The notes beneath the pieces are model-generated. The model ran no database searches, was not told the origin of the DNA, and was given only the letters and a program-made list of their open reading frames with translations. A stretch of 29,323 nt of DNA from contig NZ_JOEQ01000053.1 of assembly GCF_000721075.1 (NCBI RefSeq), positions 1 through 29,323 on the forward strand, in the 5' to 3' direction. The DNA comes from Streptosporangium amethystogenes. Lineage in GTDB: Bacteria; Actinomycetota; Actinomycetes; Streptosporangiales; Streptosporangiaceae. This document shows, piece after piece, positions 22,057-25,211 of the stretch. Both the position numbers and the translations under genes were made by a program. The stretch's first letter is position 1; the number at the start of each line of letters is the position of its first letter.

Positions 22057-22128
22057 GCCGCAGAGGCCGAACCGGTAAGGCAGCCGGCTTCCACCCGGCA
22101 GGACGGGGTTCGAGTCCCCGCTGCGGCT
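22057..22128 (+). tRNA. tRNA-Gly(TCC)-like gene
   Basis: Acceptor GCCGCAG (22057-22063) pairs 7/7 with CTGCGGC (22121-22127), discriminator T. D stem GCC/GGC is 3 bp. Anticodon stem GCCGG/CCGGC surrounds loop CTTCCAC, anticodon TCC (22090-22092), glycine. T stem CGGGG/CCCCG surrounds TTCGAGT. No CCA encoded. Position 8 is A instead of the conserved T and the D stem is short, so it is a non-standard or accessory tRNA. Flanking 21893-22056 shows a CCTTCC/GGAAGG hairpin and a CTGCA-cag-TGCAG dyad but no gene. A small GCCCT/AGGGC hairpin follows the tRNA. Confidence 0.7.
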
Positions 22129-22207
22129 CCGCCCTGAAAGAAGAGGGCCATGGGACTGGGACTCGGCGAGGGGAGTGGCGACCCCCGCCCGGTCGGCAGG
22201 CCCGCGG

Positions 22208-22248: not shown

Positions 22249-22300
22249 CGGAACGTAGCTCAGCAGGAGGAGCATCCGGCCAGGGACCGGAAGGCCGCAG
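22249..22300 (+). pseudogene. tRNA-Pro(AGG)-like gene, 5' part, interrupted in T stem
   Basis: Acceptor CGGAACG (22249-22255), TA, D stem GCTC/GAGC, anticodon stem TCCGG/CCGGA with loop CCAGGGA (anticodon AGG, G37), variable AGGCC, then GCAG of the T stem ends at 22300. The missing 21 nt are at 24946-24966, beyond the inserted element. Together they give 73 nt with perfect acceptor and T stems. C1-G72, A73, G35-G36 and G37 are tRNA-Pro features; C33 in place of the near-universal T33 is odd. Confidence 0.85.
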
Positions 22301-22357
22301 ACATCCGATCTGCGTAAAACGTCAAGCCGTAGCTTTCAGACGCGGTGAAGAGGCCAC
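22301..22357 (-). pseudogene. Distal right end with relic of a transposase 3' end
   Basis: Positions 22321-22355 match 23280-23314 (the end of the intact transposase gene) at 26 of 35 bases, and all nine differences are transitions. The relic frame ends PRLKATA and stop where the intact gene ends PRLEAAA and stop. From each stop to the CT core is exactly 21 nt (22321-22301 and 23280-23260), so this is the right end of an IS110 element whose gene body has been lost or replaced. Confidence 0.75.
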
Positions 22358-22494
22358 TGTCCGGGACAGCGTGACGAACCTCAACGTGGCTCTGCGTGAT
22401 GGTCGTTCCGGTGGGCGGTTCTCGCCGACAGCGGTCACTTGCGGCCGGGGCGTCCCAATGATCTACAAGCGGTTCTCCAGTGCCGGCCTCTAGC

Positions 22495-22559
22495 CTCATC
22501 CGCGGCCCTTCTGCCCGACGCGACAGGGCTACGCGCGGGCAGGGGGCGACGCTGATGAG
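22495..22559 (+). repeat. Nested inverted repeats upstream of cargo gene
   Basis: Outer pair CTCATC (22495-22500) / GATGAG (22554-22559) encloses CTGCCCG (22511-22517) / CGGGCAG (22536-22542). It lies about 58 bp before the cargo start, so it could be a structured leader RNA or another guide-RNA-like element. The rest of 22358-22616 has no gene I can support. Confidence 0.4.
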
Positions 22560-22616
22560 AAAAGACCTTGACGAGGTCCGAGAACGGCCGGGTGCCCGCC
22601 GGCATACGGAGGCTCC

Positions 22617-23246
22617 ATGAGCGACGCGTACTCCCCCATCCCTGAGCTGAATCTGCTCAAGGAATTTCAGGACCGGCTCGAAGGCCGAGCCTACGCGCGT
22701 GACTTCAAGTTGGTCGACTACGGCAGAGAGATCAGTGGTCTTGACGATCCGGAGCTCAAGGAGCGGCTGATTTTCTTCGCCTACGCCACTGGTGCCCCTT
22801 CGTTGTACGCTCTGTGGCGGTGCGACGACCGGGAGGACCTCGCCACCCTGCCCGTAATCTTCTGCGGAGACGAGGGTGAGATCTTCATCGAGGCGCCCAA
22901 CCTGCGTGATCTGTTGCGGGTTCTCACTCTCGACGGCACCCACATCGACGGTATCGAACTTGAGGAGGAGGATCACACCGACGGCCACCGCGAGTATCTC
23001 GCCTGGCTGGACGAGCACTTCGGGCTGAAGCCGGTCCAGGACCCCGCCCCGATCCACAAGACGGCCTTCGAGCAGTACGGCCGGTCTTTCGCCGAATGGT
23101 GGCTGCGGCGCGAACCGGACTACGCCTCCCTTGCGGAAATGCTCCAGGAACTGGCCTGCCGGTGGCGGCTCGGCTCAACTCCGGACGGTCCGTGTTCCGG
23201 GTGTGGGGTTTCGGGGTGTGAGGTCGAGTGGGGCAGATCCCTGTAG
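22617..23246 (+). CDS. Cargo gene: acidic protein, possibly SUKH/SMI1-KNR4-like
   Basis: 209 aa, acidic, no signal or membrane segment. The central part (SLYALWRCDD, LATLPVIFCGDEGEIFIEAP, NLRDLLRVLTLD) recalls SUKH-superfamily proteins, many of which are immunity proteins of toxin systems; this is a weak resemblance. The last 30 residues (RWRLGSTPDGPCSGCG onward) look unlike the rest and may be read-through after a truncation. GGAGG (22608-22612) precedes ATG by 4 nt. Third-position GC is visibly lower than in neighbouring genes, suggesting transfer. Convergent with the transposase and ending 12 bp before the internal right-end core, it sits within the predicted mobile unit. Its role there is unknown. 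Confidence 0.75.
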   Translation: MSDAYSPIPELNLLKEFQDRLEGRAYARDFKLVDYGREISGLDDPELKERLIFFAYATGAPSLYALWRCDDREDLATLPVIFCGDEGEIFIEAPNLRDLLRVLTLDGTHIDGIELEEEDHTDGHREYLAWLDEHFGLKPVQDPAPIHKTAFEQYGRSFAEWWLRREPDYASLAEMLQELACRWRLGSTPDGPCSGCGVSGCEVEWGRSL

Positions 23247-23257
23247 CGCGGATAGCA

Positions 23258-23280
23258 AGGTCATAGGTGGTGCCAAGACG
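23258..23280 (-). repeat. Internal (proximal) right-end-like sequence of IS110
   Basis: Exactly 21 nt after the transposase stop is a CT core (plus strand AG, 23258-23259), the same spacing as at the distal end. The terminal bases on the element strand are CCTATGAC-CT, unlike the distal GATCGGATGT-CT, and the bridge RNA has no guide matching them. The flank beyond (TGCTATCCGCGC) does not belong to the tRNA. Confidence 0.6.
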
Positions 23281-24507
23281 TCAAGCCGCGGCTTCCAGGC
23301 GCGGCGGGAAGGCTACGTGCTCGTCGTAGATCTTGCGGCTCTGCAGGCAGTGGAACAGGCAGCCGAGCATCCGGTTGAAAGTGTTGCGCAGTGCGCTGGA
23401 GTGCCGGTCGCCTTCGGCGCGCCGGTAGTCGTAGTGGGCTCTGGGGCCTGGTGCTCGTAGGGAGGCGAAGGACCACACGTAGCCGACGGCGGCCAGGCGC
23501 TGGTTTTTGACCTTGCGGTGGTGGACGACCAGGCTCTTGCCCGAGGCGCGGGTGATCGGCGCCGAACCGGCGTACGCCTTGAGCGCGCGAGCGTCGGCGA
23601 AGCGGGTGCGGTCGTCGCCGAGCTCGGCGAGCACGCGGGCGCCGGTCAGGTCAGCAAGGCCCGGGAAGCTGGTGATGATGGCCGCGTCCGGGTGCCGGCC
23701 GAAGGCCTCGCCGGTGGCCTCGGCGAGGTCGTCGGCGGCGCGGCAGGCGGCGTCCAGTTGCAGCAGCAGGGCCTGGGCCTGGCGGCCGAGGGCTTCCTCA
23801 ACCAACGGGAGCCGGCGCAGCTGCTCTTCGCGGAAGATCGCCTGCAGCCGGTCGATCCAGGTCTCGATGTTGCGCTGGCGACCTGAGCCGCGTAGCAGGG
23901 CGTGCAGTCGGCGAAAGGTGAGTTTGGCGGCCGCGCCCGGGGTGGGCGCCGCCTGCAGGATGGTGCGGGCCTCGCGGGAGGTCAGGCCGATGTTCTTGAC
24001 GTGGAAGGCCTTCAACGCTGCGGGAAAGTACTCGCGCAGCAGCGACCGGAGCTGGTTGGCCAGTTGCTGGCGGTTCCAGACCGCGTCCTGCTGGGCGCGG
24101 GCCAGCACGGCGATCGCCTGGACCAGCTCGGAGTCATCCGGCAGCGGCCGGTGGTGGGCAGCGTCGACCCGCAGGATGTTGGCCAAGGTCATGGCGTCGG
24201 CGTGGTCGGACTTGGCCCGCGCCACGCTGTGGCGTTCGCGGTAACGGGCCACCGACAACGGGTTGATCGCGTATACCTTCCGGCCGGTGGCGCGCAGGCA
24301 CGACACCAGCAGGCCACGGCCGGTCTCGATCGCCACTGGGATCGGATCGTCCGGGCGGTCGCCGTGTTCGGCCAGCAATTCGACCAGGATCCGCCAGCCC
24401 TGGGCGTCGTCGCTGACGCGTCGTTTGGCCAGCAGCTTGCCGTCTTCGTCGATCAGGGCGATGTCGTGGTGTTTCTCGCTCCAGTCGATTCCGCATGTCA
24501 CCGTCAC
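23281..24507 (-). CDS. IS110-family DEDD recombinase/transposase
   Basis: 408 aa. The N-terminal RuvC-like domain shows the DEDD set: D8 (CGIDWSEKHHD), E61 (VAIETGRG), D101 and D104 (KSDHADAMTL). A coiled helical middle follows, then the transposase_20 domain: IITSFPGLADLTGARVLAEL, DARALKAYAGSAPITRASGK, with the serine of the A-S-G motif near S322 as likely nucleophile. Length is normal for the family. GTG 24507 has AAGGAG 5-6 nt upstream and the usual start just before the first catalytic Asp; a longer frame to 24561 lacks a ribosome site. Apparently intact. The 436 bp upstream up to the left end encode the candidate bridge RNA. Confidence 0.93.
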   Translation of the reverse strand: MTVTCGIDWSEKHHDIALIDEDGKLLAKRRVSDDAQGWRILVELLAEHGDRPDDPIPVAIETGRGLLVSCLRATGRKVYAINPLSVARYRERHSVARAKSDHADAMTLANILRVDAAHHRPLPDDSELVQAIAVLARAQQDAVWNRQQLANQLRSLLREYFPAALKAFHVKNIGLTSREARTILQAAPTPGAAAKLTFRRLHALLRGSGRQRNIETWIDRLQAIFREEQLRRLPLVEEALGRQAQALLLQLDAACRAADDLAEATGEAFGRHPDAAIITSFPGLADLTGARVLAELGDDRTRFADARALKAYAGSAPITRASGKSLVVHHRKVKNQRLAAVGYVWSFASLRAPGPRAHYDYRRAEGDRHSSALRNTFNRMLGCLFHCLQSRKIYDEHVAFPPRLEAAA

Positions 24508-24544
24508 CGGCGTCTCCTTCGTCGGTAGTTGGCCCAGGTGAGCC

Positions 24545-24930
24545 GCGCAGGGGCACGCCACGCCCTAATGAGAGAGCTCGGCGGCTCGACATCCGATCAG
24601 CGGTTCGTGGCCCCAGCCGGCCGCAGGCCCGCGCTCTGCGCAAGGGCTCGGTGGCCCTGGTGAATACGAGCGGTGTCTCCTGCGGCTGGCTCATGTCACG
24701 ATCCTGGCGAAAAGGTATGGCTGGCGGGTGGTGATCGAGAGGGACCGAGGCGCACGGTCTTAGCAGAGGACTCGCGGTCCGGTATCAGCACAGGCGTTCA
24801 CTCGGCCCCCGCCGACCACCACTCGCCGGTCGCTCATCCTCACCGTGTACGGCCTGCGATGAGAAGTCCAAGCTCCAGTTCGAATCGAGACGTCAGCGGG
24901 ATGAGCTCCCGAGTCGGGAAACTCGGGGTC
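24545..24930 (-). ncRNA. Candidate IS110 bridge RNA
   Basis: Lies between the left end and the transposase start, the IS110-group position. In 5' to 3' order on the minus strand: hairpin CCCGAGT/ACTCGGG (24927-24908). Target loop closed by GCTCATCC/GGATGAGC (24906-24899 with 24839-24832), containing GATTCGAAC (24886-24878) and TCGCAG (24859-24854). These pair with the left and right tRNA target halves, 9/9 and 6/6 with one wobble each. Donor loop closed by GCCACG/CGTGGC (24611-24606 with 24562-24557), with inner stem GAGC/GCTC, containing GATCGGATGTC (24598-24588), identical to the distal right end, and TCATTAG (24571-24565), complementary to the left end including the core. About 210 nt separate the two loops, longer than in IS621; ends are approximate. 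Confidence 0.8.
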
Positions 24931-24945
24931 GTACAAAGTCATTAG

Positions 24946-24966
24946 GTTCGAGTCCTGCCGTTCCGA
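24946..24966 (+). pseudogene. tRNA-Pro(AGG)-like gene, 3' part
   Basis: G (24946) completes the T stem begun at 22297. Then T loop TTCGAGT (24947-24953), CCTGC (24954-24958), acceptor CGTTCCG (24959-24965) and discriminator A (24966). CGTTCCG is the exact complement of CGGAACG at 22249-22255. No CCA encoded. Confidence 0.85.
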
Positions 24967-24969
24967 CGA

Positions 24970-25107: not shown

Positions 25108-25180
25108 GCCGCTCTGGCCCAACGGCAGAGGCGCCGCGCTCAGAACGCGGATGTTCAGGGTTCGAATCCCTGGGGCGGCA
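25108..25180 (+). tRNA. tRNA with CAG anticodon but class I shape
   Basis: Acceptor GCCGCTC (25108-25114) pairs with GGGCGGC (25173-25179, one wobble), discriminator A. TG at 8-9. D stem GCC/GGC. Anticodon stem CCGCG/CGCGG with loop CTCAGAA, anticodon CAG (25141-25143), nominally leucine. Variable region ATGTT, only 5 nt. T stem CAGGG/CCCTG with loop TTCGAAT. Genuine bacterial tRNA-Leu has a long variable arm, so this is an atypical tRNA whose charging is uncertain. The stretch 25019-25107 is GC-rich repeats without a gene. Confidence 0.75.
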
Positions 25181-25211
25181 CGCGATACGACGCCGGGGAC
25201 GGCAGGGGTGA

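Follow-up and report, generated by a model that had tools for sequence, protein, structure and literature searches.

A tRNA-splitting IS110-group element of Streptosporangium amethystogenes with a predicted bridge RNA carrying tandem target loops

How is the T-arm of a tRNA gene chosen as the landing site of an IS110-group insertion element, and does the RNA that would guide the choice hold one address or several? The question is raised by a 29,323 nt stretch of Streptosporangium amethystogenes DNA (the window), which contains a single complete IS110-group element. The element lies on the minus strand and runs from CT core to CT core (22301–24945), its ends being set by the donor guides and by the tRNA that results when the flanks are joined; the second copy of the CT core is at 22299–22300. 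It splits a plus-strand tRNA gene at the T-arm. The 5′ part of the gene occupies 22250–22300 and the 3′ part, from the T-loop on, occupies 24944–24967 (last base approximate), with the core AG at 24944–24945. When the flanks are rejoined, ARAGORN calls a 74 nt tRNA of type Pro(AGG).

The recombinase ORF (23281–24561, minus strand) has Pfam, NCBIfam and PDB matches to IS110 DEDD recombinases. The true start is probably about 20 codons inside the ORF, judging from where the alignments of relatives begin. Pfam DEDD_Tnp_IS110 and Transposase_20 (PF01548, PF02371) are above cut-off and NCBIfam transpos_IS110 (NF033542) reaches 167.8 bits against a cut-off of 140, which bears out an earlier assignment of the element to the IS110 group. 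The phmmer match to IS621 in the PDB (8wt6) is weak (E 2.3e-6 overall, neither stretch significant alone), with the catalytic motifs aligned. In a manual reading of this weak alignment, D26, E79, D119, D122 and S340 pair with IS621 D11, E60, D102, D105 and S241, residues named in PMC11208158. Residues 238–342 additionally give a weak NCBIfam TIGR_Tas_endo match (24.9 bits against a cut-off of 100), in agreement with the published IS110–TIGR link.

A multi-target bridge RNA of about 390 nt is predicted on the minus strand at about 24936–24545. Its folded features, all on the minus strand, start with a 5′ stem-loop, CCCGAGT..ACTCGGG (24908–24927), which is kept in close relatives. Target-binding loop 1 (24832–24906), directed at the tRNA T-arm, scores 12.0 bits with the loop model R2 described below and is closed by the 8 bp stem GCTCATCC/GGATGAGC (24906–24899 with 24839–24832). 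It holds left target guide 1, GATTCGAAC (24878–24886), and right target guide 1, TCGCAG (24854–24859). The donor-binding loop (24547–24616) holds the left donor guide GATCGGATGTC (24588–24598), equal to the right end at 22310–22300, and the right donor guide TCATTAG (24565–24571), the complement of the left end CTAATGA (24945–24939). All four guides, both element ends and an 8 bp closing stem had been read in an earlier note from the sequence, and each was recovered, the guides and ends at the same positions. It is the left end that holds the guides, not the right end, the IS1111-type position. A Rfam scan of the window gave tRNA alone above threshold, and no such match in the left end; sub-threshold matches, such as sR32 at 24844–24783, were dismissed as chance.

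The donor guides match the element ends at 17 of 17 positions, whereas the best of 2000 dinucleotide-shuffled left ends reaches 15. Target guides 1 match the occupied T-arm at 13 of 15 positions. Both mismatches are T for C, one in GATTCGAAC and one in TCGCAG, and are of the rU:dG wobble type. Since 62 of 2000 shuffles also reach 13, the target guides of the window taken alone are not far beyond chance and comparative evidence is needed. When the left ends of 72 loci were scanned against the target of the window, its own left end came 14th, level with or behind those of other elements. Comparison across relatives, given below, decides the matter.

About 210 nt separate the two loops. The earlier note had set this distance against the compact IS621 RNA; the distance stands, but it is no spacer: the gap is filled by two more guide loops, and these account for the wide separation of the T-arm loop and the donor loop. 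They were found through a loop model built on relatives, in which the matched target loop lies at varying distances from the gene. RNAalifold gave no base pairs for a first model (R1), and a structure was then set by hand after counting column pairs. The resulting covariance model (R2) has 7 pairs and rests on 26 of 31 matched loops, with L014 left out as a member of the window clade and L045, L019, L008 and L020 also left out. Covariation of its pairs is 0.444 against 0.182 ± 0.029 in shuffled alignments (0 of 500), and slid controls reach at most 0.153. The three best R2 matches of the window all fall in the left end. The top match of the whole 29 kb is loop 2 (24809–24741; 39.3 bits, E 6.9e-6), followed by the donor loop (24616–24547; 23.5 bits, E 0.01) and a third guide-loop module, M3, which adjoins the donor loop (24686–24618; 23.4 bits, E 0.011); the next match, outside the left end, has E 0.13.

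Loop 2 (24741–24809, minus strand) folds with the closing stem GGGGCCGAG/CTCGGTCCC. Its left guide, TGCTGATAC (24782–24790), is placed by the R2 match and by the sites of relatives, and reads AGTCGATAC in relatives such as L012 and L185. Its right guide, TGCTAAG (24759–24765), is placed by the R2 match and by the right flank CTTAGCA of L186. With two target loops and an extra guide-loop module, the predicted RNA departs from the single target loop of the IS110 group. As the loops are of the known type and other IS110 features are found, the RNA is taken as a variant.

Tandem loops are not confined to the window. An R2 survey took in 88 loci, with repeats, truncated ends, own-genome fragments and L011, L090, L091, L096 and L112 left out. 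Loops scoring at least 20 bits and lying upstream of the M3 slot were counted in 59 left ends with different first loops (near relatives counted separately, window excluded): one loop is present in 30, two in 25 and three in 4. Grouped by loop similarity, the 74 loci with at least one loop form 37 clusters. Multi-loop members occur in 20 of these, the longest member having two loops in 16 and three in 4, and the other 17 contain single loops only. Within the window clade, L034, L035 and L037 show only one of the two loops at 20 bits or more; loop 1 of L037 (17.8 bits) falls under this limit and is absent from the loop count, and L037 scores 9 in the fixed-register test below.

Whether the guides follow the sites was examined across relatives. 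Of 111 loci with a recombinase match, a left end could be parsed in 84 and both ends were present in 75; removal of repeats left 72. A right end was recognised as a copy of the left donor guide (8 bases, one mismatch allowed) followed by TCT, and a left end as the complement of the right donor guide; a 6-base left end is liable to misplacement. Because the ends were located through the donor guides, donor covariation is a test by finding rather than an independent alignment; a right end is present in 75 of the 84 parsed loci against about 1 % expected by chance (our estimate). The donor loop and right end of the same element share ATCGGATG, ATCGGAGG, GTGAGATG, GTGAGGTG, CTGAGATG and others, so that the donor guides co-vary with the element ends.

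For the target guides, a scan of whole left ends at the 72 loci compared the joint match to own and other targets. The own-pair sum is 1024, against 832 ± 8.6 in 10,000 permutations (maximum 866); thus co-variation of target guides with insertion sites, which had been proposed as a check, is found. Two further tests are partly circular, R2 having been trained on target-matched loops, a circularity from which the 72-locus scan is free. In a fixed-register test of 61 elements, the best loop of an element scores 14.0 of 16 on its own site against 8.19 ± 1.58 for the loops of other elements. By target cluster, 30 of 32 score at least 12, a level that only 15 of 3554 background pairs attain. L057 and L093 have two candidate left ends each, and the outer one was chosen by hand for these two tests. 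At rejoined sites a tRNA is called by ARAGORN only for the window and L012. Most relatives are located outside tRNAs, and the guides have therefore changed many times.

The position of the matching loop within the left end varies. Among the multi-loop loci for which both ends are known, 31 when repeat copies are counted, the best loop is the first in 16, the second in 12 and the third in 3; 30 of these loci score at least 12, and L078, a first-loop case, scores 11. Identical copies at different loop-matched sites provide the strongest, model-free evidence for the proposed use of more than one loop. In Streptomyces acidiscabies NRRL B-16521, three copies (L048, L049 and L050) have the same 1830 bases throughout and occupy two kinds of site: the L048 site, GTCAACGTC-CT-CTGGG, matches loop 2 at 15/16, and the L049 and L050 sites, GCTYTCAGC-CT-TGGCG, match loop 3 at 14/16 and 15/16. 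In G331, a genome listed with 9 % contamination, L018 and L031 agree in 1845 of 1846 bases; the L018 site, CTGGTACCC-CT-TGTCC, matches loop 1 at 15/16 and the L031 site, CGACATCAC-CT-TCGAC, matches loop 3 at 15/16. From these two (near-)identical sets it follows that, at least in those lineages, a single left end has made recent use of two of its loops. Within each of the related pairs L053/L054 and L068/L095 the two members have both loops in common, almost unchanged, and their sites are matched by different ones. Since identical copies occupy different sites, the multi-target claim is directly testable.

In the lineage of the window, loop-2 insertion is represented by two damaged, intergenic copies and by no single intact insertion among the lineage elements. 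L185 retains both loops and has a left flank ending in GTGACGATAC, but has lost the recombinase and the right end. L186 (= L016) retains the right end with the flank CT-TAGCACTC, its left end being deleted. Common upstream sequence, judged by reading, suggests that L185 and L186 are one locus. The left flank TGACGATAC of L185 and the right flank TAGCA of L186 combine to a site that matches loop 2 at 14/16. The earlier note had reasoned that the same target guides at another kind of target would speak against the reading; L185 is such a relative, yet its flank matches the second loop of the same left end.

Uninterrupted CGATACCTTAGCA is found at six sites in 54 genomes of the genus of that locus, compared with one match for a reversed-pattern control. 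The six empty sites follow TATCG, which forms a palindromic pairing with CGATA; the full string is GTATCG at five sites and CTATCG at the sixth, and a CCCC..GGGG hairpin lies beside three of the six. An interpretation of the loop-2 sites as one orthologous promoter was rejected, the ORFs of at least 100 aa near the six sites and L186 having no mutual similarity at E 1e-6. As no neighbouring ORF is held in common, the sites are described as a recurring motif. Rfam gave nothing at these sites up to E 0.5. As a separate observation, the intergenic motif TATCG..CGATACCTTAGCACT recurs in one genus (L193–L198, L185 and L186), partly beside a CCCC..GGGG terminator-like hairpin.

M3 has the loop shape, AG facing the core where readable, and variable flanks. 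As a general target loop it was rejected: against present targets in 42 elements, own sites score 8.5 and others 7.2 ± 1.6. One clear positive is L027, in which the M3 slot is the sole loop before the donor loop and matches the target at 15/16. M3 is taken as the original target-loop slot adjoining the donor loop.

Read together at the sequence level, the left end of the window element very probably specifies a multi-target bridge RNA with a 5′ stem-loop, at least two tandem target loops, M3 and one donor loop, the engaged loop picking the site. An ordinary two-loop bridge RNA, with loop 1 and the donor loop as its working parts and the other loops as inactive duplicates from earlier programmes, is unlikely. 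In its favour, only one loop matches each present site, the non-best loops of multi-loop loci averaging 8.5 against a background of 8.1. Loop 2 of L035 also looks decayed, and the host genome has no exact loop-2 site core (GATACCTTAGCA), with four one-mismatch matches against six in the reversed-pattern control. However, the two (near-)identical copy sets occupy sites of different loops, the second or third loop is the best in 15 of the 31 multi-loop loci, and loop 2 of the window scores best of all loops there. Multi-copy insertion sequences can be homogenised, and it is conceivable, if quite improbable, that different ancestors each used one loop and that gene conversion later stitched both loops into every copy. 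The window element does look recombinant, with a second recombinase end at 22357–22322, but tandem loops occur in 20 of the 37 clusters, many known from one locus only, and homogenisation leaves unexplained why complete loops are kept in series.

For loop 1 of the predicted RNA, the T-arm address can be followed through the lineage. The target guides of the window match one intact host tRNA gene without mismatch, tRNA-Arg(TCT) at G000:C21:135427–135500. GATTCGAACCTGC occurs at one other place in the host, on contig C12, but this is no tRNA gene and the remainder of the right guide is absent there. Elements with 82–100 % recombinase identity and a left end are located in T-arms in 7 of 7 cases, the window counted; the six close relatives (L012, L014, L034, L035, L036 and L037, 82–88 % amino acid identity, some under both G and L names) start straight after the T-arm, at GGATTCGAAC|CTAATGA, and L009, L016 and L030/L098, without a left end, are outside this count. 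The right target guide follows the tRNA type. It reads TCGCAG in the window, which fits tRNA-Arg(TCT), and CCGCAG in L012, L014, L034, L035, L037 and L185, which fits tRNA-Arg(CCT) T-arms (GCCGCAG); in these six, loop 1 scores 17.8–32.3 bits with R2. L036, listed also with L017, is a T-arm insertion in which both target loops have been lost from the left end and M3 and the donor loop are kept.

Across 341 genomes of the family, the left-end motif occurs at 11 places in 10 genomes, and 9 of the 11 follow a T-arm. The two others are L177 (= L185), which matches loop 2, and L181, which matches neither loop. The right-end motif GCAGATCGGATGTCT occurs at 28 places in 25 of the same 341 genomes, against one match when the pattern is reversed. 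Read by eye, a tRNA T-stem follows at 15 of these right ends, a loop-2 site at one, and at 12 other sequences that, as far as they were read, match neither loop; L173, cut by a contig end, was assigned to the T-stem group through its left end. The suggestion that the element is programmed for T-arms is supported by the 9 of 11 left ends and the exact match to tRNA-Arg(TCT). It is very improbable that the T-arm match is a coincidence of the common TTCGAA and that the site is chosen by, for example, a protein or homology: TTCGAA is found in many tRNA genes and the loop-1 match is equalled by 62 of 2000 shuffles, but 9 of the 11 lineage left ends share one T-arm position and the guides track sites in 30 of the 32 target clusters.

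A mechanism can be proposed for the multi-target RNA. Excision would circularise the element, so that the −35 of the right end meets the −10 of the left end and the joined promoter drives transcription of the bridge RNA. In the window, the −35-like TTGACG (22320–22325, minus strand) stands 18 nt from TCTAAT over the circle junction, as identified by comparison of layouts. This junction layout (TTGAC, TTGCC or TTGTC, spacer 15–20, TCTAAT) is present, as a raw count, in 63 of 63 distinct junctions, and the spacer is 17–19 in the 12 of the 63 displayed; the junction sequence would thus form a promoter. The recombinase would then use the donor loop and one of the target loops while holding the circle junction; the engaged target loop would choose the site, and strand exchange would take place at the CT core. 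Loop 1 would aim at T-arms of the tRNA-Arg type, the occupied tRNA being read through two wobbles, and loop 2 at the palindrome-flanked intergenic motif.

IS621 (PMC11208160, PMC11208158) and the window element share a DEDD recombinase with catalytic motifs in line, a left-end RNA, a 5′ stem-loop, two-guide internal loops and a CT core, together with the layout of a circle-junction promoter (PMC11208158), which in the window is a likeness of sequence. The IS621 RNA, as there described, has one target loop and one donor loop and is numbered to nucleotide 177, whereas about 390 nt, two target loops, M3 and a donor loop are predicted here; unlike that of IS621, the target in the window is a tRNA T-arm. 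The IS1111 group with its seekRNA (PMC11187229) likewise has an RNA-guided DEDD transposase and site-specific insertion. However, its RNA is in the right end and it has long subterminal inverted repeats (PMC11208160); in the window the guides are in the left end and no such repeats were noticed on reading the ends. TIGR-Tas arrays (PMC12045711) are similar in having tandem units with two short guides each that read opposite DNA strands, but their proteins have Nop domains, and the window protein is an IS110 recombinase with TIGR_Tas_endo under cut-off.

In the accessible text, a bridge RNA is described as a 5′ stem-loop and two further stem-loops (PMC11208160), the IS110 RNA as a single two-stem unit (PMC12045711), and a 2026 review has two loops (PMC13199778). 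The portions available of PMC11208160 describe no multi-target bridge RNA, and those of PMC11187229, PMC12859917 and PMC13174815 hold nothing against the novelty of tandem target loops. A literature search that covered sources other than bioRxiv and most subscription papers, partly in excerpt, gave no report of tandem target loops in bridge RNAs or of tRNA- or T-loop-directed bridge RNAs, and the literature on IS117, to the same extent, has nothing on multi-loop or tRNA-directed bridge RNAs. As far as the literature searched goes, tandem target loops thus appear new for an IS110 bridge RNA.

It is probable that actinobacterial IS110 elements carry target-loop arrays by which a single RNA, with a single recombinase, reaches several unrelated addresses, that such arrays stand as a stage between the two-loop RNA and TIGR-type arrays, and that the addresses of the window lineage include tRNA T-arms, among them displaced, island-border-like ends. 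If true, this is a naturally multiplexed RNA-guided transposon. Tandem loops would let elements shift or widen their range while keeping an old address, would connect IS110 RNAs with tandem-guide (TIGR) arrays, and may make natural multi-target bridge RNAs possible starting points for genome engineering. Some tyrosine integrases use tRNA genes as attachment sites; loops that read T-arms would be an RNA-guided route into this classic integration site. The tRNA site is common to both, but in the window RNA guides are predicted to read the address, and the insertion leaves the tRNA gene in two parts instead of restoring it.

The right side of the window element is made longer by a passenger gene, a plus-strand ORF of 209 aa (22617–23246) with no Pfam or NCBIfam match at E 0.001. 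Directly before the right end is a remnant of a second recombinase 3′ end (22322–22357, minus strand; VASSPRLKATA and a stop, compared with VAFPPRLEAAA and a stop). The passenger ORF lies between the intact recombinase and this remnant, as if two element copies had recombined around it. Some 500–1300 bases also lie between recombinase end and right end in L036, L060, L062, L064, L066, L068, L069 and L070, and in L074, L079, L091, L103, L105, L110, L111 and L112; with 16 such relatives, passenger DNA at that place recurs.

The element is located in a cluster of tRNA calls: Gly(TCC) at 22057–22130, the split Pro(AGG)-like gene at 22250–24967 and Leu(CAG) at 25108–25181. The Leu(CAG) call is 74 nt, short for a leucine tRNA, and relative L012 is inserted in a comparable Leu(AAG) call. 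These clustered tRNA genes of the window are unusual and look like supernumerary tRNAs.

In L014, L035, L036 and L037 the interrupted tRNA consists of a 3′ half only, diverging at the anticodon loop. An uninterrupted copy called tRNA-Arg(CCT) is present elsewhere in the genomes of L014, L034 and L036 (G163, G204 and G096), and the genome of L035 (G176) has two further copies of the 3′ segment, of which the one examined is not called a tRNA. Because tRNA-Arg(CCT) 3′ ends repeat in the same genomes, the split tRNAs of these four elements may be displaced ends at the far side of integrated islands, and splitting them would cost the host little. ORFs in the right flanks of L035–L037 were listed; the proposed island border is placed from the tRNA repeats. 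The 3′ segment of tRNA-Arg(CCT) also occurs as several direct repeats within tens of kb in G174:C1:1957453–2025448, G176:C310, G181:C1 and G182:C1, the pattern expected if islands had accumulated at a single tRNA gene in these genomes.
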